Assembly (NCBI GenBank): GCA_024276275.1
Contig: JAJRXM010000069.1
Location: 1-43,853, forward strand
DNA: 43,853 bases
From: Candidatus Zixiibacteriota bacterium
GTDB lineage: Bacteria; Zixibacteria; MSB-5A5; GN15; FEB-12
Direction: 5' to 3'
This document shows, in pieces, positions 10,875 to 20,036 of the stretch (its first letter is position 1; each line of letters opens with the position of its first letter). Position numbers and translations under genes: made by a program. The notes below the pieces were generated by a model, which was not told the origin of the DNA, ran no database searches, and saw nothing but the letters and a program-made list of their open reading frames with translations.

Positions 10875-11228
10875 ATGAAACGAATTTTATTCGTATTAGC
10901 TCTTATGCTAATACTAACTGTATGCTTCGTCGGCGAAGCATTTGCTTTAAACCGCCCCTGGTCTGAAGCAGGAACTATTCCGGACGGTGATGAACACCCA
11001 TGGGGTGGAGACGAAAACAATACAGACCCACAACCTTTCTCAATAAAAATTGGTGGTCAAGGAACCTTTGCTACCGGAATTATGCCGGTCGATTTACTTT
11101 TCAGATTTTTCTTTTTGGATAAATCAAATATCATTGAAGAGAATAACTCTGTCAGGCAGGATAGTCAAAGTCGACTAATTGATTTTCCTAAAAATGTAAC
11201 CGTAAAAAATAAAGGTATCCGTAAATGA
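10875..11228 (+). CDS. Small secreted protein coupled to a sigma54 activator gene
   Basis: I do not recognise the family. The 117-aa product starts with a clear Sec signal peptide (MKRILFVLALMLILTVCF..., cleavage probably after GEAFA, ~residue 24). A mature chain of about 93 residues is left, rich in Trp, Pro, Asp and Gly at its start (LNRPWSEAGTIPDGDEHPWG). A hydrophobic patch (PVDLLFRFFFL) follows, and the tail is basic. A good Shine-Dalgarno (AAGGAG) precedes the ATG. The stop overlaps the start of the next gene in ATGA, so the two are translationally coupled. A signal, ligand or envelope partner for that regulator is an inference from this coupling only. Confidence 0.7.
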   Translation: MKRILFVLALMLILTVCFVGEAFALNRPWSEAGTIPDGDEHPWGGDENNTDPQPFSIKIGGQGTFATGIMPVDLLFRFFFLDKSNIIEENNSVRQDSQSRLIDFPKNVTVKNKGIRK

Positions 11229-13480
11229 AGATTGAGAAAAAAATCCGCAAAGATTTTTTAGACTCAATGTTTCATTACTTGGAGACCTTGATAAGTCAAA
11301 AAAATCTCACCGATGCCGTGAAGTATTACGAGTCACATCGTGATGAACTTCATCAGTCCGGAATTGCGGCGGGAGCGATACATCACATTGCCAGTAAAGC
11401 CTACGCTTCTCTCACTCAACTTCAACAAGCACTTAAAACTGCCCGTCTTGCTCAAAATTCCGCTACAGTCGAAGGAAATAATATCCTTCTAGCTGATATT
11501 TGTATAACAATCGGATCTATTTTGAGAGACATGAGTGAATTTAAAGAAGCGGAAAAAGCATATCGTGATGCTGAATCAATTTACCGCCGTAACGATTCAT
11601 TGGAAGGACAAAGCCGTGCATTAAATATCTTGGCAGGATTGTTCTTTAAACAAACTGATTATAGTAATGCCCTTTCTGTTTTAATTGATGCTTTGGAAAT
11701 TGCTAAAAAACTTGATGACAAGAAAAAACTTGCCTTCATGATGGGAAATATCGGACGTATTTATACATTTACCGGTAATTTTTCAGAAGCAAAAAAACAT
11801 CTTCGTACATCAGTTGAACTTTCTGAAAGTTTAGGTAACTCTCTTGAAATTGCCCGTGGTTGTTTATCTCTCGGGTATATTTATCTTCAGGAAGCTAACT
11901 ATACAAAAGCTGAAACTGCATTTGAAAAAGCATATCCGCTAATAATTAGCGAACAAAGTAAACGTGATGAAGTTTACTATTTAACCTATGTAGGTGAATT
12001 GCAATATAGAACTATGCAGTTTACACAAGCCAAAGAACAGCTTGAAAAAGCATTAGAATTAGCTGAGTCAATTGCACCTAATTCTATTCTTACCGGTGCT
12101 CCTCTTCGTCATTTAGCTGAATTAGCTCTATTGGAAAATAATACTAATACAGCCAGCCGGTATGCTTCACGTGCCTGGGTTATATTTGAAAAAACATCTG
12201 ATAAAGTTGAGCTGGGTGTTCTGCTTAAAATCAAAGCTCAAATAGCATCGCTCAAACAAGATGCAGCTGAAAGTAAAAATCTTTTTGTGAAATCTATTGA
12301 GTTGTTGTCTGAATCGGGTGTTCGTTTTGAAAAAGCTGAGGCGTTAGTTGCTGCTGGTAAATCTAAAGTTTTCAAAACTCGTCAACGTTTAACCTATTTG
12401 TTCCGTGCTGAAGAATTTTACAGCAGTTGTAATTTGACTCAGAAACTTTTACAAATAGAAAAGCTTCTAAACAATGTGGAGCAAACAGCAAAACAAAAGC
12501 CTAAACAAATTCCGACCCAAACCGGTATTTGTCCGGACAATATTGAATATCTCACTATAAACAAAGAGATAATTCAATTTAAAGGACAGCTCCCGTTACT
12601 CGCATACACCGATCTCCCTATATTACTGACAGGCGAAACCGGTGTCGGTAAGGACCACATGGCAAGATATTTCCATCATGCCGTTCGTCCCGAGGGACCG
12701 TATATTGCTATCAACTGTGCCTCATTACCTGAAACATTACTTGAGTCGGAACTCTTTGGATATGTGCGGGGTGCTTTTACAGGTGCTGAAAAATCCAAAG
12801 AAGGTCTTTTTGTAGCTGCTAATCAAGGAGTTCTGTTCCTTGATGAAATCGGCGATATGCCTTTGTCTTTACAAACGAAACTTCTTTCTGTTTTAGAAAA
12901 CAGAACTATAGTTCCGCTTGGTTCTACGAAGACAGTTGCTTTGGATATCAAACTAATTGCCGCAACAAACAAAAACTTAGAGGAAATGGTTGCACAAGGT
13001 ACCTTTAGACGTGATCTCTATTATCGTTTAAGTGGAATTACTTTTACCTTACCTCCACTCAGAGACCGTAAGGCTGATATTCCGATTCTTTTAGAGAAGT
13101 TTATGCTGCAATCACAACTTCTAAAAGAAGGTGATAAACTGGAAGTTGATTTTGTAAAGCAGTTTATTGCCTATGACTGGCCGGGTAACACCAGAGAATT
13201 GTATAACAAAGTCAAACGACTTGAGGTTATGACAATGATGGTTGCCGAGGGTGACTTAGTTGAACTCTCCCGTTCTATGTTTAAAAGTGATGCTGCTTTA
13301 GAAGAAAAATCACTTTTTGACAGGGTTGAAGAGTTTGAACGGAAAATTATCGTTGAGGCTCTTTTAGCAGCCAAAGGTAATAAATCCGAGGTTGCCAGAA
13401 TGCTTGGGATTCATGAAGCAACGGTACGTACAAAACTCAAACGATACGATATTTCTTTAGATAATTATCATATGAACTAA
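11225..13480 (+). CDS. TPR-repeat sigma54-dependent transcriptional activator (AAA+, Fis-type HTH)
   Basis: This is a 751-aa bacterial enhancer-binding protein. Residues ~20-400 are helical tetratricopeptide-like repeats, with TPR-like segments such as EFKEAEKAYRDAESIYRR and ANYTKAETAFEKAYPL, in place of a receiver or PAS domain. The AAA+ domain has Walker A TGETGVGKD (~468-476), the sigma54-contacting GAFTGA loop (~516-521), Walker B GVLFLDEIGD (~535-544) and RRDLYYRLSG. The C-terminal Fis-type HTH is KSEVARMLGIHEATVRTKL (~720-738). It should drive RNA polymerase-sigma54. A consensus sigma54 promoter lies 390 bases downstream, in front of the BMC genes, which are its most likely target. The TPR domain probably senses a protein or peptide. 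No membrane segment is seen. Confidence 0.92.
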   Translation: MKIEKKIRKDFLDSMFHYLETLISQKNLTDAVKYYESHRDELHQSGIAAGAIHHIASKAYASLTQLQQALKTARLAQNSATVEGNNILLADICITIGSILRDMSEFKEAEKAYRDAESIYRRNDSLEGQSRALNILAGLFFKQTDYSNALSVLIDALEIAKKLDDKKKLAFMMGNIGRIYTFTGNFSEAKKHLRTSVELSESLGNSLEIARGCLSLGYIYLQEANYTKAETAFEKAYPLIISEQSKRDEVYYLTYVGELQYRTMQFTQAKEQLEKALELAESIAPNSILTGAPLRHLAELALLENNTNTASRYASRAWVIFEKTSDKVELGVLLKIKAQIASLKQDAAESKNLFVKSIELLSESGVRFEKAEALVAAGKSKVFKTRQRLTYLFRAEEFYSSCNLTQKLLQIEKLLNNVEQTAKQKPKQIPTQTGICPDNIEYLTINKEIIQFKGQLPLLAYTDLPILLTGETGVGKDHMARYFHHAVRPEGPYIAINCASLPETLLESELFGYVRGAFTGAEKSKEGLFVAANQGVLFLDEIGDMPLSLQTKLLSVLENRTIVPLGSTKTVALDIKLIAATNKNLEEMVAQGTFRRDLYYRLSGITFTLPPLRDRKADIPILLEKFMLQSQLLKEGDKLEVDFVKQFIAYDWPGNTRELYNKVKRLEVMTMMVAEGDLVELSRSMFKSDAALEEKSLFDRVEEFERKIIVEALLAAKGNKSEVARMLGIHEATVRTKLKRYDISLDNYHMN

Positions 13481-13543: not shown

Positions 13544-13580
13544 TGTTATATCGCATTGTGTATAACATTGCGATATAACA
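13544..13580. promoter_or_regulatory. Perfect 12-bp dyad, candidate enhancer or operator
   Basis: TGTTATATCGCA (13544-13555) and TGCGATATAACA (13569-13580) are exact inverted repeats separated by 13 bases. No T-run follows, so it is not a terminator. It overlaps a possible -35/-10 pair (TTGACT 13535, TGTATA 13559). It sits 64 bases after the activator gene and about 300 bases upstream of the sigma54 promoter, a suitable place for an enhancer bound by the Fis-type HTH. The half-site core ATCGCA also occurs at 10641, 10682 and, twice, at 13852-13862. Confidence 0.6.
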
Positions 13581-13626: not shown

Positions 13627-13665
13627 AACGGTAAGTCTGTGTTTCACAGGCTTACCGTTTTTTTT
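13627..13665 (+). terminator. Strong intrinsic terminator downstream of the activator gene
   Basis: A 15-bp stem AACGGTAAGTCTGTG / CACAGGCTTACCGTT with a TTT loop is followed by a run of T to 13665. It ends the activator transcript about 150 bases past the stop codon. It could also end a ~95-nt transcript from the possible promoter at 13535-13564. Confidence 0.88.
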
Positions 13666-13869
13666 CGTTAACCTATACGAAAACCGCACAATATTTGGTT
13701 GCTACTCTATCTTCTTCTCTGTCAACGGCTTAACTTGCCAACCCAAATCAAGCCACTCGTACATTCATACGACAATTTAAGAATACAAACCGATCACACC
13801 GACCTCTAAAAACTATACTCTATTATGCCACAACAAGATACAGTTCACATCGCATCGCATTACAACTCT

Positions 13870-13885
13870 TGGCATATAGGTTGCT
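13870..13885 (+). promoter_or_regulatory. Consensus sigma54 (-24/-12) promoter
   Basis: TGGCATATAGGTTGCT matches the sigma54 consensus TGGCAC-N5-TTGCW, with the invariant GG (-24) and GC (-12) correctly spaced. Transcription would start near 13896. It lies downstream of a sigma54-activator gene and upstream of the BMC operon on the same strand. The double motif ATCGCATCGCAT ends about 8 bases before it. Confidence 0.75.
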
Positions 13886-13895
13886 TATGATATAA

Positions 13896-13996
13896 GTGTC
13901 ATTTTTACTCCCAGATTTTAGCTGTAATTTTTGGGTTTTCTTTTCTCTTTGGTAAGACCATCCGCACACTGAGGGGAGTGCGGGTGGTTATTTTTT
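13896..13996 (+). ncRNA. Predicted ~100-nt sigma54-driven leader RNA or small RNA
   Basis: The interval runs from the predicted sigma54 start site to the end of an intrinsic terminator, with no good ORF inside. A small hairpin (CCCAGA ... TTTGGG, ~13911-13934) precedes the terminator stem. It may be a free small RNA, or a leader that controls read-through into the BMC-H gene 92 bases further on. No known RNA family is recognised. The call rests on the promoter and terminator predictions only. Confidence 0.5.
13956..13996 (+). terminator. Intrinsic terminator between the sigma54 promoter and the BMC genes
   Basis: The stem ACCATCCGCAC / GTGCGGGTGGT (one G-T pair) has a 10-base loop and is followed by TATTTTTT. 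Its position after a promoter and before the first BMC gene makes it a possible attenuator. Confidence 0.78.
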
Positions 13997-14087
13997 GCCT
14001 TATTCCGACAATTTCAGACCGAAATATATTCAATAAAATCAGATACTGTTTTACAATTGGCTTGCAATCATTTATTATCCTAATGTA

Positions 14088-14663
14088 ATGTCTGATAAAG
14101 CACTAGGATTGATTGAAACCAAAGGATTGATTGGTGCAATCGAAGCAGTCGATGCTGCCGCCAAAGCAGCCGCTGTTATTGTATCATCAGTTGAACTGAC
14201 CGAGGCTGCCTTTATGACTTTAAAAATCGAAGGTGACTTAGGAGCGGTGCAGGCAGCGGTAGAAGCAGGAGCTACTGCGGCTGAAAAAATCGGAGAACTT
14301 GTAGCTGTTCATGTGATAGCTAACCCGTCAAATGAAATGTCGGCAATTCTCCCCCGAAGAAGATATATCTCAAAGTACCACCCGAATGACAACCGCCCTG
14401 CATTGACAGACAACAATGCCGAAGCTAAACTTCCTGTAAAAAAGAAAAAAAAGGTACAAAAGCAAACCGACACAAAACAGCAAAACATAACTGAGATTAA
14501 AAACCAAATAATAGAACATGAACTGGATAAAATGACTGTCTCGGAACTTCGTCAGATTGCCCGTAAACTAGTCAACCTGACACTCAAAGGACGAGAGATT
14601 TCAATGGCAAACAAACAACAACTTATAGATGCGATACGTCGCACTAAAGATAACGGGAAATAA
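14088..14663 (+). CDS. BMC-H shell protein with a basic linker and Rho-N/SAP-like C-terminal tail
   Basis: Residues ~3-85 form a BMC (Pfam BMC) domain: ALGLIETKGLIGAIEAVDAA, KIEGDLGAVQAAVEAG and LVAVHVIANPS are the classic shell-hexamer segments. A linker of about 60 residues follows, including the lysine-rich PVKKKKKVQKQ. The last ~40 residues (MTVSELRQIARKL, then GREISMANKQQLIDAIRRTK) resemble the small helical Rho-N/SAP fold that binds nucleic acid in other proteins. Total length is 191 aa against ~95 for plain BMC-H. EutK and PduK also carry C-terminal extensions, but of other types. It is the first gene of the BMC operon and the only BMC-H in the window. The Shine-Dalgarno is weak. Confidence 0.9.
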   Translation: MSDKALGLIETKGLIGAIEAVDAAAKAAAVIVSSVELTEAAFMTLKIEGDLGAVQAAVEAGATAAEKIGELVAVHVIANPSNEMSAILPRRRYISKYHPNDNRPALTDNNAEAKLPVKKKKKVQKQTDTKQQNITEIKNQIIEHELDKMTVSELRQIARKLVNLTLKGREISMANKQQLIDAIRRTKDNGK

Positions 14664-14666
14664 ATT

Positions 14667-14984
14667 ATGTTTATGGGTAAAGTTGTCGGATCGCTCTGGG
14701 CAACCAGAAAAGTAGAAAACACATCGGGAGTGAAATTTTTAATCATTCAACCGTATAACTTAAACAAAGAACCGAACACCGATACAATTGTCGCTGCCGA
14801 TACTCTTGGAGCAGGTGAAGGTGAACTTGTTATGGTGGCGTACGGACGTGCGGCAAGGGTCGCGGTCGGTAATGAAGATATGTCTATCGAGGCTGCTGTT
14901 ATCGGTATAATTGATGAGTACACAGTTGATAAAGAAGCATACAACGGTGATTTAGACATTGAAAAAGTAGCATTTAAAAAGTAG
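14667..14984 (+). CDS. EutN/CcmL-type BMC-P pentameric shell vertex protein
   Basis: This ~105-aa protein closes the vertices of a polyhedral BMC shell. The start GKVVGSLWATRKVENTSGVK, then FLIIQPYNL, IVAADTLGAGEGELVMVAYG and AVIGIIDEYTVD, is the full EutN/CcmL pattern. It begins 3 bases after the BMC-H stop. Translation may start at the ATG at 14667 (MFMGKVV) or, as in most relatives, at 14673 (MGKVV). A pentamer protein implies a closed shell is built, not just a sheet. Confidence 0.93.
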   Translation: MFMGKVVGSLWATRKVENTSGVKFLIIQPYNLNKEPNTDTIVAADTLGAGEGELVMVAYGRAARVAVGNEDMSIEAAVIGIIDEYTVDKEAYNGDLDIEKVAFKK

Positions 14985-14995
14985 TTAAGAATATA

Positions 14996-15052
14996 GTAGG
15001 TCAGGTCTCCCCTAGACCAGACATTAAAGGGTGTTTCACGAAACGCCCCTAC
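14996..15052. repeat. Dispersed palindromic repeat family A (full-length copy)
   Basis: It consists of two hairpin-forming parts: GTAGGTCAGGTCTCCCCTAG (palindromic around TCTCCCC) and GGGTGTTTCACGAAACGCCC. The full-length consensus from the copies here is about 57 bases. It fills the gap between the BMC-P gene and the small membrane-protein gene. A family B copy (GTAAGTCGAAACCCCTGCGG) follows at 15070-15097. Confidence 0.75.
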
Positions 15053-15116
15053 GAGATAAAAATAAATTAGTAAGTCGAAACCCCTGCGGTTTAGACAAAA
15101 GTGAAAATAGAATAAT

Positions 15117-15263
15117 ATGAAAAAGTTAAACATATTTTATCTGCTCGCCTTTATCGGCGGAGGACTTCTGTTTGTTGCGGCGGCATATTTACTGCTTCGT
15201 GCAAGCGGACTATGGTATAAACTGTCACCCGACAACGGCGACAAATGGATTGAGCATGAGTAG
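15117..15263 (+). CDS. Small single-pass membrane protein in the BMC operon (48 aa)
   Basis: No family is recognised. The 48-residue product reads MKKLNIFYLLAF at its start, has one hydrophobic helix (~6-28, rich in Leu/Ala/Gly) and a short polar tail containing LWYKLSPDNGDKWIEHE. It lies between the BMC-P and pduS-like genes on the same strand, so it is probably co-expressed. A membrane anchor or connector for the PduS-like redox protein is possible but unproven. The ORF is short and its Shine-Dalgarno poor, so it could also be non-coding. Confidence 0.5.
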   Translation: MKKLNIFYLLAFIGGGLLFVAAAYLLLRASGLWYKLSPDNGDKWIEHE

Positions 15264-15336
15264 TGAAGCATGCTTCGACAAGCTCAGCATGACTTGTTTA
15301 TATAACAATATCCACCAAGTCACCCTGAGAACCTAA

Positions 15337-15393
15337 GTAGTCAGGTCTCCCCGAGACCTGACAATGTAGAGGTGTTACATATAACGCCCGCAC
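15337..15393. repeat. Dispersed palindromic repeat family A (full-length, diverged copy)
   Basis: GTAGTCAGGTCTCCCCGAGA continuing CCTGACAATGTAGAGGTGTT, with a degenerate second hairpin (ACATATAACGCCCGCAC). It sits just before the pduS-like gene. A family D piece (CTTCGACAAGCTCAGCATGA) lies at about 15271-15290. Confidence 0.7.
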
Positions 15394-15427
15394 GAAAGAA
15401 AAATGAATTGAAAAGACTAAAAACAAT

Positions 15428-16750
15428 ATGCATCCAATAGTTGAGAAAATAAAACAGGCAGGAATTGTTGGTGCCGGCGGTGCGGGATTCCCTGCTCATA
15501 TCAAATTTAACGCCAAGGCGGAAATCCTTATCGCCAACGGTGCCGAGTGCGAACCGCTTCTGTATAAAGATAAAGAACTGATGCGTCTTTTTTCGAATGA
15601 AATCAAAAAAGGAATCGAACTTGCTGCAGAAGCTGTCGGAGCATCGCGAACTATTTTGGGCATCAAAGCAAAAAACTCGGAAGTTATCAGTCAGTTCAAC
15701 GGACTTTTTGGCGGAACTTCGCACGAGATTTTTGAAATGGGTGACTACTACCCTGCCGGTGATGAATATGTTTTAGTCTACGAAGCGACCGGTCGGTTGA
15801 TACCCTATGGAGGTTATCCGGTTAATATCGGATGTGTAGTCTCAAACGTCGAGACACTTCTAAATATAGCCCTCTCCGATTCGGGAGTCCCTGTTACCGA
15901 AACTTTTGTAACGCTAAACGGCGTTATCAAAAATCCGATGACTCTCAAAGTTCCGATTGGTACTCCTCTCAACGAACTTATAAATTTCGCCGGTGGTTTT
16001 TCTGTTATCGGTAATGTAGCATCTCTATCAGGCGGTGCTATGATGGGCAGTCTGCAGACAGATTTCACACGACCACTTATGAAAACCTGTTCAGGCTTTA
16101 TCTTCCTACCAACCGACCATAATTTAGTCCGTCGTCGTGGAGAGTCTCTTTCTGAAATGAAAAAAATCGGACAGTCGGCATGTGACCAATGCACCTACTG
16201 CACCGAGTTCTGTCCTCGATATTTGTTAGGCTATCATATAGAACCGCACAAAGTAATGCGTTCGCTCGGTTTTGCAGGTGAACAAGATGACTTCTGGGGT
16301 TTGCACGCCATGAACTGCTGTGAGTGTAATCTTTGTTCGCTCTATGCCTGTCCCGAAGATTTAGACCCGAAACAAGCGTGCGTAAGGTCAAAAAGAAATA
16401 TAAAATTAAAAGATATTCCGTATACTCCCCCACCTGAAGATTTGACCGCCCATCCAATGCAGGAACATCGCAAAGTATCAACCCACAAACTGACCCGAAA
16501 ACTTGGACTTGCACCTTATAACTTTGAAGCATATTTTAATGATGCTTCTTTTGCCCCCTCGCAGGTTTCTATCCCTCTTTTGCAGCATGTCGGTTCTCCT
16601 GCGGAGGCAAAAGTTTCAGTCGGTGATTCGGTTTCGGTCGGTGATTTGATAGGTTCTATTCCCGACGGTTCTATGGGAGCCAACATACACGCCTCGATAA
16701 ACGGAACTGTCACCCACGTAGATGAAAATATAACGATAAAGGCAAGATAG
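15428..16750 (+). CDS. pduS: PduS-like cobalamin reductase / RnfC-type flavin and Fe-S electron carrier
   Basis: This 440-aa protein resembles PduS, the BMC-associated NADH/FMN/[4Fe-4S] protein that reduces cobalamin or passes electrons across the shell. The N-terminal glycine-rich GIVGAGGAGFPAHIKF (~13-28) with EPLLYKDKEL is the RnfC/Nqo1-type nucleotide/FMN fold. An SLBB region surrounds residues ~185-235. Two ferredoxin-like Cys sets follow: CDQCTYCTEFCPR (~252-264) and CCECNLCSLYACPED (~297-311). The C-terminal part has a barrel-sandwich (RnfC N-like) region. It abuts the BMC-T gene with no gap, the same pairing as pduS-pduT. No B12-dependent diol dehydratase is in the window, so its partner enzyme is unknown. 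Confidence 0.88.
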   Translation: MHPIVEKIKQAGIVGAGGAGFPAHIKFNAKAEILIANGAECEPLLYKDKELMRLFSNEIKKGIELAAEAVGASRTILGIKAKNSEVISQFNGLFGGTSHEIFEMGDYYPAGDEYVLVYEATGRLIPYGGYPVNIGCVVSNVETLLNIALSDSGVPVTETFVTLNGVIKNPMTLKVPIGTPLNELINFAGGFSVIGNVASLSGGAMMGSLQTDFTRPLMKTCSGFIFLPTDHNLVRRRGESLSEMKKIGQSACDQCTYCTEFCPRYLLGYHIEPHKVMRSLGFAGEQDDFWGLHAMNCCECNLCSLYACPEDLDPKQACVRSKRNIKLKDIPYTPPPEDLTAHPMQEHRKVSTHKLTRKLGLAPYNFEAYFNDASFAPSQVSIPLLQHVGSPAEAKVSVGDSVSVGDLIGSIPDGSMGANIHASINGTVTHVDENITIKAR

Positions 16751-17302
16751 ATGGAATACTCAGCAATAGGATTAATAGAATACAGCTCGATTGCCAAAGG
16801 TATCGGTTCTGCTGATGAAATGCTCAAAGCAGCATCGGTGGAAATGGTGATCAGCCGTACAATTTGTTCGGGCAAATACATGAATATGGTCGCAGGCGAT
16901 GTACAGGCTGTCAAGCAAGCTGTCGATGCGGGCGAACGGTATGGTGCCGAAACAGTGATAGATTCGTTTGTCATTCCGAATGTACATCCCGATGTTTTCC
17001 CTGCTATGTCAGGTTCAACCCAACTGGTCAAACTTGATGCTTTAGGAATTATCGAAGCTTTCTCGGTAGCATCGCTTGTAGAAGCTGCCGATGCTTGTGC
17101 CAAAGCTGCCGAAATAAAACTGATAGAGATTCGTCTTGCCATGGCACTTGGTGGAAAAGCGTTTGTGACACTAACAGGAAATGTCGGAGCAGTGGAAGCT
17201 GCTGTTGAAGCGGGAGCCGAAATTGTATCGAAGGCAGGGATGCTTGTCAACAAAGTTGTGATTCCATCACCAAGCAAAGAACTCATGCGAGACATATTGT
17301 AA
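16751..17302 (+). CDS. pduT: PduT-like tandem BMC-T shell protein with probable Fe-S cysteine
   Basis: This 183-aa protein has two BMC domains in tandem (~4-85 and ~95-180) and would form pseudohexameric trimers. The loop RTICSGKYMNMVAGDV contains Cys39 in the position where PduT binds a [4Fe-4S] cluster at the trimer axis. The second domain reads DALGIIEAFSVASLVEAADA. It starts one base after the PduS-like stop codon. PduS and PduT are thought to work together, PduT carrying electrons through the shell. Confidence 0.92.
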   Translation: MEYSAIGLIEYSSIAKGIGSADEMLKAASVEMVISRTICSGKYMNMVAGDVQAVKQAVDAGERYGAETVIDSFVIPNVHPDVFPAMSGSTQLVKLDALGIIEAFSVASLVEAADACAKAAEIKLIEIRLAMALGGKAFVTLTGNVGAVEAAVEAGAEIVSKAGMLVNKVVIPSPSKELMRDIL

Positions 17303-17334
17303 GGTGTTATATATCATTGAGGTTTATTTAAATT

Positions 17335-17757
17335 ATGGATGTGAAAGTAGGAAGAAAGAAAAACATTAAAGTATTATTTCATGTTTTCTATAGTATAGTT
17401 GTAATAATAATTATCAATAGTATCTATCGATTTGTTTTGAACAATGGATCAAACGAGGATCTTATGTTTCTCATTACATCTATTGTATTTTTCTTAATTT
17501 TTACCTTTGCATATATTGATTTCATTAGAACTATTTTTGTTATTAATGACTTATTTATTTGTAATATAAGTACATTTAGCAATAAGATATATTTTAAAGA
17601 AGTTAATAGAATTATAATTTCTAAAAAGTTTATACAAGTTTTTAATAAAGAATCGAAGATTAAAATCAATTCGGAATTCGATGATTTTATGAAGATAAAA
17701 TCTTTTATTATTGAAAAAGTTTCTAACAATGAAAATATTGAAATAAATAAAAAATAA
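17335..17757 (+). CDS. Hypothetical AT-rich two-helix membrane protein
   Basis: I do not recognise this 140-aa protein. It has two hydrophobic helices (~13-35 and ~42-68) followed by a charged domain of about 70 residues with alternating beta-like stretches (FKEVNRIIISKKFIQVFNKE), an arrangement seen in small PH-like membrane proteins. Base composition is far more AT-rich than the flanking BMC genes, and a family A repeat follows directly. This suggests a later insertion into the BMC operon, not a core component. Confidence 0.6.
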   Translation: MDVKVGRKKNIKVLFHVFYSIVVIIIINSIYRFVLNNGSNEDLMFLITSIVFFLIFTFAYIDFIRTIFVINDLFICNISTFSNKIYFKEVNRIIISKKFIQVFNKESKIKINSEFDDFMKIKSFIIEKVSNNENIEINKK

Positions 17758-17765
17758 TAGAATTT

Positions 17766-17823
17766 GTAGGTCTGGTCTTTCCAAGACCTGACAATGTAGG
17801 GGTGTTTCGCGAAACGCCCCTAC
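17766..17823. repeat. Dispersed palindromic repeat family A (full-length copy)
   Basis: GTAGGTCTGGTCTTTCCAAG continuing ACCTGACAATGTAGGGGTGT, then TTCGCGAAACGCCCCTAC. The second half is an almost perfect 22-base palindrome (GGGGTGTTTCGCGAAACGCC). It lies between the AT-rich hypothetical gene and the ACT-domain gene. Confidence 0.75.
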
Positions 17824-17870
17824 TTAAAGAGTGAAAAATAAAAGATTTAAAAAGATAAAGAGTAAACATT

Positions 17871-18437
17871 ATGGCACTATCAGAATTTGAAATAAAAAAG
17901 ATTACCGAAATTGTTGCAGGTAAAGTCGGAACCGACCTCGACGCAAAAGCACTTCGCAAAGTTATCGACTCGGTAGTTGATAATTTGCAGGCAAACCAAA
18001 ACAATCCTGAAATAAAAGGTGCCACTTGTGAAGTGTCAGCATCAGACAGTAAAGCAGAAGCAAAAACTACTATCGGTAATTCGCCGACAATACAAAAATA
18101 TCTTACTGATGAAAATCAGGTACAGGGTAAGGGCGGGTTGTATGATGAAATCGAAAAATCCGATGCCTCACGTATTATTGTTGCCGCTTTTGGAAAGAAC
18201 CGTCCCGGTGTGGTTGCCGCTATTACAAAAATACTTGCTGAGTTGAATTGTTCTATTGAAGATATTTCGCAGACAATCATGCAGGATTTTTTCTCGATGA
18301 TTATGGTTGTTAATATGAAAGACTGTACGATGGACTTTGCTACCCTTCGTGAACAGATACAGGCGACAGAATCAACCCTTGGCATGAAAGTATATGTCAT
18401 GCACGAAGACATTTTTAAGTACATGCATAGGATATAG
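17871..18437 (+). CDS. UPF0237 ACT-domain protein with an encapsulation-peptide-like N-terminal extension
   Basis: Residues ~97-188 are a complete UPF0237 ACT domain (RIIVAAFGKNRPGVVAAITK, LAELNCSIEDISQTIMQDFF, SMIMVVNM, ending VYVMHEDIFKYMHRI), normally a ~90-aa stand-alone protein. Here about 96 residues are added in front. They contain two amphipathic helices, EFEIKKITEIVAGKV (~5-19) and AKALRKVIDSVVDNLQ (~25-40). The second fits the L..VI..VV..L spacing of peptides that target cargo into BMC shells. A flexible Ser/Lys/Glu-rich linker joins the parts. ACT domains usually bind small ligands such as amino acids. The next gene is UPF0210, its usual partner. Cargo status is an inference. Confidence 0.85.
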   Translation: MALSEFEIKKITEIVAGKVGTDLDAKALRKVIDSVVDNLQANQNNPEIKGATCEVSASDSKAEAKTTIGNSPTIQKYLTDENQVQGKGGLYDEIEKSDASRIIVAAFGKNRPGVVAAITKILAELNCSIEDISQTIMQDFFSMIMVVNMKDCTMDFATLREQIQATESTLGMKVYVMHEDIFKYMHRI

Positions 18438-18735
18438 ATATTAGATATTTACTTGTAGATTTCAGACCTGCCTGAACCTCGTAGGTCGAAACCCCTGTGG
18501 TTTCGACATGACTGTATCCGTTATAAAGTTGGGAATGATATTGAAATAAAAACAAACAACCCTTTTTTGTTCCCCTCTTTTAAGAGGGGTTAGGGGTGTT
18601 TTTAAAACATAAGATTGCCACGGCGACAAGTCGCCTCGCAATGACAGGAACTAAAATAAGTCACACTGAACAGCTTGCAAGCTGTGAGCTTGTCGATGTG
18701 TGCTCCAAATAAATATTAAAAGCGGAAATAACATT
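18438..18735. repeat. Repeat-rich spacer in the BMC operon
   Basis: No gene is seen in about 300 bases. It holds a family B palindrome at 18481-18508 (TCGAAACCCCTGTGGTTTCGA) and the hairpin CCCCTCTTTTAAGAGGGG at 18572-18589 followed by GGGGTGTTTTT, possibly a weak terminator. It also holds a CCACGGCGACAAGTCGCCTC stretch (18616-18635) ending in CAATGACAGGA, and a family D piece with CTTGCAAG (18661-18700). Several unrelated dispersed repeats are packed side by side. Confidence 0.6.
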
Positions 18736-20036
18736 ATGACATACAAACCAGAAGAAATTATTGAAACTATTCACATGACCGAGGTCGAACATCTTGATAT
18801 TCGTACTGTCACCATGGGTATATCACTACGCGACTGCTCATCGCCTGACCCATCCCAACTGATAGATAATATCAAAACAAAACTACTGACCCTCGCAAAA
18901 GACCATGTGAAAACTGTTGAACAAGTATCAAGCGAATTTGGAATCCCTATTGCCAACAAACGTATTGCCGTCACCCCGATTTCAATAATCGCCGACGGTC
19001 ACAGCCGCGAAACATTTGTCGAAGTCTGCAAAGCTCTCGACTACTGTGCCAAAGAACTTGGTATCGACTACCTTGGCGGATATTCAGCCTTGGTACAAAA
19101 AGGAATGACCAAAGGTGATAAAAATTTAATAGAGTCTATCCCCGAAGCGTTGGCTGTTACCGAACGGATATGCTCATCGGTCAATATAGCCTCGACCAAA
19201 GCAGGTATCAACATGAACGCCGTTGCCAAGATGGGTCATATAATAAAAGAGTTAGCTAACAACACCGAAGAAGCTATCGGATGCTGCAAGTTAGTTGTCT
19301 TTGCTAACTGTGTTGAAGACAACCCGTTTATTGCAGGTGCATTCCACGGTGTTACCGAACCGGAAGTTGTTATTAATGTCGGTATCTCCGGACCCGGGGT
19401 GGTTCTTGCCGCTGTACAAAAAGCAGGCGATTGCGATTTGGGTGCTTTGGCGGAAGTTATCAAACGAACGGCATTCAAAGTTACCCGTATGGGTGAGATG
19501 GTCGGGCGTAAAGTTTCCGAACGGTTAGGAATTGAATTCGGTATTATAGATCTGTCACTTGCACCGACTCCTGCCGAGGGAGATTCGGTTGCCTCGATTT
19601 TGGAAGCTATCGGACTGGAACGGTGCGGATGTCACGGCACTACTGCGGCACTTATGATGCTCAACGATGCTGTCAAAAAGGCGGCATGATGGCATCGTCG
19701 TATGTCGGAGGTCTTTCGGGTGCTTTCATTCCGGTCTCTGAAGATGCCGCCATGATTCGTGCAGTTGAAGCAGGTGCGATGACTTTAGAAAAACTTGAAG
19801 CGATGACTGCGGTCTGTTCGGTCGGGCTTGATATGGTTGCGGTTCCCGGTGATACCCCTGCCGAAACTATTTCAGCAATCATTGCCGACGAAGCTGCTAT
19901 TGGTGTAGTCAATAATAAAACTACTGCTGTGCGAATTATCCCTGTCCCTAATAAAGGTGTCGGTCAGTCGGCAGAGTACGGCGGACTGCTTGGAACGGCT
20001 CCTGTTATGGCGACCTCGAAGTTTTCATCGGCTTAA
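18736..20036 (+). pseudogene. UPF0210/DUF711 ('PFL family') protein, split by a frameshift
   Basis: The two reading frames together make one DUF711 protein of about 433 aa. The first part (ATG at 18736, [14 protein letters not shown]) carries [15 protein letters not shown], the conserved N-terminus, plus [11 protein letters not shown] and [14 protein letters not shown]. It breaks at LNDAVKKAA*. The second frame resumes as [20 protein letters not shown] and ends [19 protein letters not shown]. The break is at an A5 run (19675-19679) and one more A restores the frame. The family has a PFL/RNR-like barrel fold but no assigned reaction. UPF0237 and UPF0210 genes commonly sit together; finding them in a BMC operon is unusual. 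A GTG at 18700 in frame is a less likely start. Confidence 0.88.

Follow-up and report, generated by a model that had tools for sequence, protein, structure and literature searches.

An order of uncultured Candidatus Zixiibacteriota very probably carries a small RNA (sRNA) gene that is transcribed from a sigma54 promoter under the control of a TPR-type activator (bEBP). In the window (the whole stretch of DNA that was analyzed, 43,853 nucleotides), the predicted gene lies between the activator gene and a microcompartment (BMC) operon. Comparison of related genomes strongly supports a stand-alone sRNA gene, i.e., an independent transcription unit with a terminator. The 5' end of the RNA is predicted to pair with the start of a gene for a zf-HC2 anti-sigma factor.

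A probable sRNA gene behind a sigma54 activator gene

The features of the locus, in window coordinates, are as follows.

10875–11228, plus strand: small-protein gene, 4-nt overlap with the activator gene; the product has the motif DEHPWGGDE and an apparent signal peptide
11225–13480, plus strand: TPR-AAA-Fis sigma54 activator (bEBP) gene (Pfam domains; GAFTGA in the alignment)
13627–13659, plus strand: putative intrinsic terminator of the activator transcript (hairpin with T-run; relatives also have one after the activator gene, ahead of the RNA)
13664–13681, no strand: distal enhancer palindrome TTCGTTAACCTATACGAA, -207 from the -24 GG
13756–13773, no strand: proximal enhancer palindrome CTCGTACATTCATACGAC, -115 from the -24 GG
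13870–13885, plus strand: predicted sigma54 -24/-12 promoter TGGCATATAGGTTGCT (pattern match; kept in relatives)
13896–13996, plus strand: predicted sRNA of ~100 nt (covariance models R1 and R2); start placed by the usual distance from the -12 element, end by the U-run
13897–13911, plus strand: 5' seed UGUCAUUUUUACUCC, complementary to GGAGUAAAAAUGACA, which comprises a ribosome-binding site and a start codon
13910–13935, plus strand: hairpin 1, variable in sequence (single-sequence folds)
13936–13955, plus strand: CU-rich unpaired linker
13956–13996, plus strand: hairpin 2 with invariant GAGGG loop, and U-run (covariation; U-runs across the family)
14050–14078, plus strand: sigma70-like promoter TTTACA-N17-TATTAT, assigned to the BMC-H gene and not to the sRNA

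The predicted promoter is an exact fit to TGGCAYRN4TTGCW, a pattern with 12 matches in the 3.39-Mb genome versus 3 for a reversed control pattern, and RpoN is present in this genome (E 3.5e-57). Hairpin 13956–13989 is followed by ATTTTTT, and the gene at 14088 encodes BMC-H; the strong hairpin and U-run should end a transcript of ~100 nt ahead of the BMC gene. A simple terminator scanner missed this hairpin, whose loop is presumably too long for the scanner's limit of 8 nt. The initial annotation of this DNA had pointed out the perfect -24/-12 spacing, the adjoining sigma54-activator gene and a terminator between the promoter and the first BMC gene, and it had named a lack of rpoN as grounds for giving up its proposal. 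All three observations hold up, the activator gene having TPR, Sigma54_activat and Fis-type HTH domains with GAFTGA, and rpoN is there. Absent from that annotation were the two enhancer-like palindromes, the terminator of the activator gene and the sigma70-like promoter.

The arrangement of promoter and hairpin is preserved in dozens of related genomes, and judged by this preservation it is beyond chance. Covariance model R1 was searched in 61 relatives, which represent four families of the order, and found exactly one copy of the RNA in 49 of them. Model R2, searched in 132 genomes of the phylum, found one copy per genome in 64 genomes, all within the order, i.e., 64 of the 80 order members in the set by our own count from the genome listing. 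The E-values of both models are rough; strong matches are far from the threshold, and the weakest matches, in family f4 (E about 1e-4 to 1e-3), rely on promoter and palindrome conservation. The genomes seem mostly to be drafts or assembled from metagenomes. Genera g8 and g27 have neither the RNA nor a full-length activator orthologue, and the small protein is absent or marginal there. Three genomes of family f5, outside the order, carry a diverged module composed of a small protein with HPWQD, a bEBP, a sigma54 site 233–251 nt behind the bEBP, and a hairpin RNA. Model R2 misses this diverged RNA, which was located by its position after the bEBP (L289, L290, L291).

From 5' to 3', the predicted sRNA consists of the UGUCAUUUUUACUCC segment, hairpin 1, the CU-rich linker, hairpin 2 with its GAGGG loop, and the U-run, and the 104-nt RNA folds better than shuffled sequences (z -3.0). 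The initial annotation had called for a covariation search for conserved leader structure, and hairpin 2 provides it: 11 of 13 pairs have double changes and 96.4% of cells are paired, versus 37–50% in slid controls, in an alignment that was fitted to the tested structure and so favors it. A strong U-run occurs in 33 of 47 members; the other 14 lack a U-run of 5 or more in 8, in some cases because the stem was extended into the U-run. As judged by eye, linker (YYCUC) and loop (GAGGG) are complementary in nearly all members and form a candidate pseudoknot, which is inaccessible to covariation because the loop never varies. Indels whose lengths are not multiples of three, also read by eye, occur in the alignment and argue against an open reading frame within the predicted sRNA. 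The Rfam 15 covariance models gave no match to the leader or sRNA, and no description of this RNA turned up in the literature searched.

Several lines of evidence suggest that the RNA is probably switched on by the neighboring TPR-type activator. In 36 genomes, the RNA is immediately preceded by an orthologue of the activator gene, which ends 208–478 nt before the RNA match. Two TTCGTA-N6-TACGAA palindromes occur at fixed distances, about -115 and -205 from the -24 element. With at least 9 of 12 matches required, they are found at -114±9 in 37 of 44 genomes and at -204±9 in 38 of 44, and at seven other offsets in 0–2 genomes. In four genomes scanned whole, exact palindromes occurred only at the RNA (two of G039, one of G032), which suggests that the bEBP is a dedicated activator; we consider this role likely for the protein encoded at 11225–13480. 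A search for related loci returned mostly unrelated bEBPs.

The genes for the activator and the small protein are located elsewhere in G023, in G030 and in family f4. In f4, both palindromes and the sigma54 site have nevertheless remained at the RNA; this tells regulatory linkage apart from mere neighborhood. Overall, the position-conserved -24/-12 element of the TGGCA-N6-TTGC type, rpoN, and a bEBP with GAFTGA and upstream sites all point to sigma54 control. The predicted sRNA resembles a bEBP-paired sRNA in its place beside a probably dedicated bEBP gene, with its control deduced from these sites, and in forming a separate unit with a terminator.

The small-protein gene is co-encoded with the activator throughout the order. 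The proteins evolve fast, keep a near-invariant HPWGG (HPWQD in f5), and always occur just upstream of the TPR activator (alignment A4); no Pfam or NCBIfam match was found for them. It is conceivable that the TPR domain receives a signal from them, as a peptide or from the envelope. A near-perfect 16-nt inverted repeat, TGTTATATCGCATTGT/ACATTGCGATATAACA, lies at 13544–13580 between the activator gene and its terminator.

A predicted target at the start of an anti-sigma gene

The seed is the exact complement of GGAG-UAAAA-AUG-ACA, i.e., a Shine-Dalgarno sequence, spacer and start codon. Its complement was sought in eight genomes with up to 2 mismatches. Outside the RNA itself, the exact 15-nt complement lies where a zf-HC2 anti-sigma gene starts in G000–G003 and G032 (five genomes, two genera); this gene follows directly behind an ECF sigma gene, both identified by Pfam. 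The 2-mismatch sites of G027 and G020 are again at the anti-sigma start. The sigma/anti-sigma pair is syntenic in two genera (L325:7280-12044, L326:5827-10623), where it is accompanied by genes for an exported protein and an M54 peptidase and by phosphopentomutase-like and deoC-like genes.

A blind find came from G014, which belongs to a third genus and was sampled piecewise: its orthologous operon has the exact 15-mer. The RNA of G014 itself pairs with this site over 14 of 15 nt, one as G-U. The target is unchanged, and the RNA has changed to a tolerated G-U pair and an edge mismatch. Of the 4872 candidate starts in the 749 kb sampled from G014, only two form a duplex of better energy than the anti-sigma start, and in the limited DNA of G000 and G032 it gives the best or nearly the best duplex. 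Chance exact matches to the seed are negligible in G014; for the genus of the window they are not, at 0.6 per genome, a figure that is itself inflated because the small genus sample contains four anti-sigma sites. Ribosome-binding sites also resemble each other. We regard the anti-sigma gene as a moderately probable target of the sRNA, which would then probably silence it. Hfq was not found in any of the 61 genomes, in which controls were detected, so the pairing would be Hfq-free.

A different reading accepts the same sRNA gene and takes the anti-sigma match as incidental; the RNA would then act in another way, for example by protein binding to its GAGGG loop or CU-rich linker, or on other mRNAs, e.g., that of an M3 peptidase. 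The most invariant parts of the sRNA are this loop and linker, not the seed. Seeds differ in G009, G013, G015, G018, family f3 and much of f4. In G011 the seed is the same, yet there is no anti-sigma start within 2 mismatches, and the anti-sigma locus was not found in about 0.8 Mb sampled from G009. A second exact seed complement occurs at L300:1501-1515 (G000:C31:26664) and L301 (G002), where a gene for an M3-family oligopeptidase F-like protein starts. Against this, exact or near-exact sites lie at the same anti-sigma orthologue in eight genomes from five genera, and the site in G014 is free of overlap with the ECF stop codon. We consider an incidental match the less likely reading and retain the anti-sigma start as the predicted target. 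Where seeds have diverged, the RNA 5' ends predict target starts of their own: GGAGTTAAGATGACA in G009, GGAGTAACAATGACC in G015, GGAGTAGAAATGACA in G018 and, in family f2, GGAGCTTAAAATGACA in G037.

Relation to the microcompartment genes

The BMC operon is the downstream neighbor of the RNA in only part of one family, where promoter, RNA and hairpin are conserved upstream of BMC-H homologues. In other lineages, the gene 3' of the RNA is a transporter, an SDR-like enzyme or another gene (names other than BMC-H were read by eye). In the first set of genomes, no BMC-H homologue was matched in any of the 24 from f2–f4, and 18 of these carry the RNA with its promoter. In G008, the BMC genes are on contig C256 behind unrelated sequence and the RNA is on contig C57. 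BMC-H also appears to have its own promoter: in the window, the sigma70-like element sits just 5' of the BMC-H ATG, and 12 of 17 cases have an element of the TTTACW-N17-TATNNT type 5–13 nt 5' of this codon; the mean score exceeds all 300 shuffles.

These data bear on a mixed use, in which the element serves mainly as an sRNA gene and, in BMC-bearing genomes, some readthrough adds sigma54-driven BMC expression. Such readthrough would fit the U-runs that are weak or missing in, e.g., G018, G020 and G031, and the orientation of the BMC operon, which is that of the RNA wherever the two are neighbors. However, the window has a strong stem with T6, a second terminator-like hairpin follows the weak U-run of G022, about 400 nt separate RNA and BMC-H in G031, and BMC-H has its own promoter; we judge the mixed use improbable.

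Conditional termination has a known precedent in eut operons with ANTAR leaders. The model put first by the initial annotation takes the sigma54 promoter for that of the BMC operon, with the TPR activator turning it on and conditional (riboswitch-, ANTAR- or attenuation-like) termination gating it. That precedent and the position in the window suggest this model, but it is very improbable given the RNA in 18 genomes without BMC-H, the BMC genes without RNA in cis in G008, the BMC promoter, and the lack of an Rfam leader or ANTAR match. A conditional-termination leader lies in the 5' leader of the operon it regulates, and this placement was not found for the RNA. The BMC leader was rejected on these grounds, and with it the proposed new mode of BMC control. 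The second option of the same annotation, that the promoter makes a small RNA, has strong support from the comparative evidence.

The BMC locus itself (14088–20036) encodes BMC-H with a Rho_N-like C-terminal extension, EutN, an RnfC/PduS-like protein, a two-domain BMC protein, an ACT-domain protein and DUF711. Neither DUF711 nor ACT domain is a term used in the main text of the BMC catalogue of 2021 (PMC8217296). The DUF711 gene (18700–20036) seems split by a frameshift or sequencing error, as the ORF ends at 19689 and an overlapping frame starts at 19623. Several genomes have a GCTCC...GGAGC hairpin directly at the BMC-H start codon (L055, L051, L022, L054). Intergenic repeats of the type GTCAGGTCTCCCCGAGACCTGACAATGTAGGGGTGTTTCGCGAAACGCCCC are interspersed at about 15010, 15340, 17770, 20190 and 21060 of the window.

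Known bEBP-sRNA pairs and a proposed mechanism

In two known systems, the Qrr sRNAs with LuxO and GlmY with GlrR, a bEBP governs sigma54-dependent sRNAs; the Qrr RNAs pair at the start regions of mRNAs, and CrcZ works through Hfq/Crc. The Zixibacteria RNA resembles Qrr and GlmY in its predicted dependence on sigma54 and a bEBP, and Qrr in its predicted pairing at an mRNA start. It differs in RNA, partner proteins and target, and LuxO and GlrR are response regulators (LuxO is treated in PMC4878744).

In myxobacteria, the Pxr sRNA gene is directly downstream of the gene for the NtrC-like activator PxrR, it has a predicted sigma54 promoter and upstream enhancer region, and sRNA and activator appear to have co-evolved (PMC5684412). 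The pair described here shares with Pxr and PxrR/PxrK the sRNA gene 3' of a bEBP gene, the predicted sigma54 promoter, the upstream enhancer region and the apparent co-evolution. However, PxrR is a two-component response regulator, whereas the activator here has TPR without a receiver and a small HPWGG partner protein; the RNAs are unrelated, and Pxr is without known targets, whereas an anti-sigma target is predicted here. CbrB, a bEBP of Pseudomonas, activates the CrcZ and CrcY sRNA genes from sigma54 promoters via upstream subsites (PMC6296734). The CrcZ/CrcY system is likewise bEBP-driven with upstream sites, but the subsites of CbrB lack palindromic symmetry and CbrB acts on many further targets (PMC6296734), whereas the sites here are palindromes. 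Unlike for CrcZ, no Hfq was found in the 61 genomes. The architecture matches that of PxrR-Pxr and resembles CbrB-CrcZ, but the RNA is outside known families.

We propose the following mechanism. The TPR-type activator would bind the two palindromes and make sigma54-RNA polymerase transcribe the ~100-nt RNA, with transcription stopping at hairpin 2; the downstream BMC genes would use their own promoter. The sRNA would act in trans, apparently without Hfq, its 5' end covering the ribosome-binding site and start codon of the anti-sigma gene. Lowered translation of the anti-sigma factor would free the ECF sigma factor encoded just upstream in the operon. Perhaps the HPWGG protein reports the state of the envelope to the TPR domain of the activator. 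We hold the explanation as a whole (sRNA gene, sigma54/activator control and anti-sigma target) to be likely. The full relay from sigma factor to sigma factor through RNA, which would start from an exported HPWGG protein and end with release of the ECF sigma factor in a phylum without detectable Hfq, is put forward tentatively.

The analysis removes BMC control as a wrong lead and adds an sRNA family that is absent from Rfam and whose promoter, enhancers and dedicated activator could all be deduced from genomes. No sRNA work on the phylum Zixibacteria was found in the literature searched. The activator and its sRNA appear still tied after separation of their genes. If the predicted target is true, silencing of an anti-sigma factor by the RNA would link the sigma54 system to that of the ECF sigma factors.
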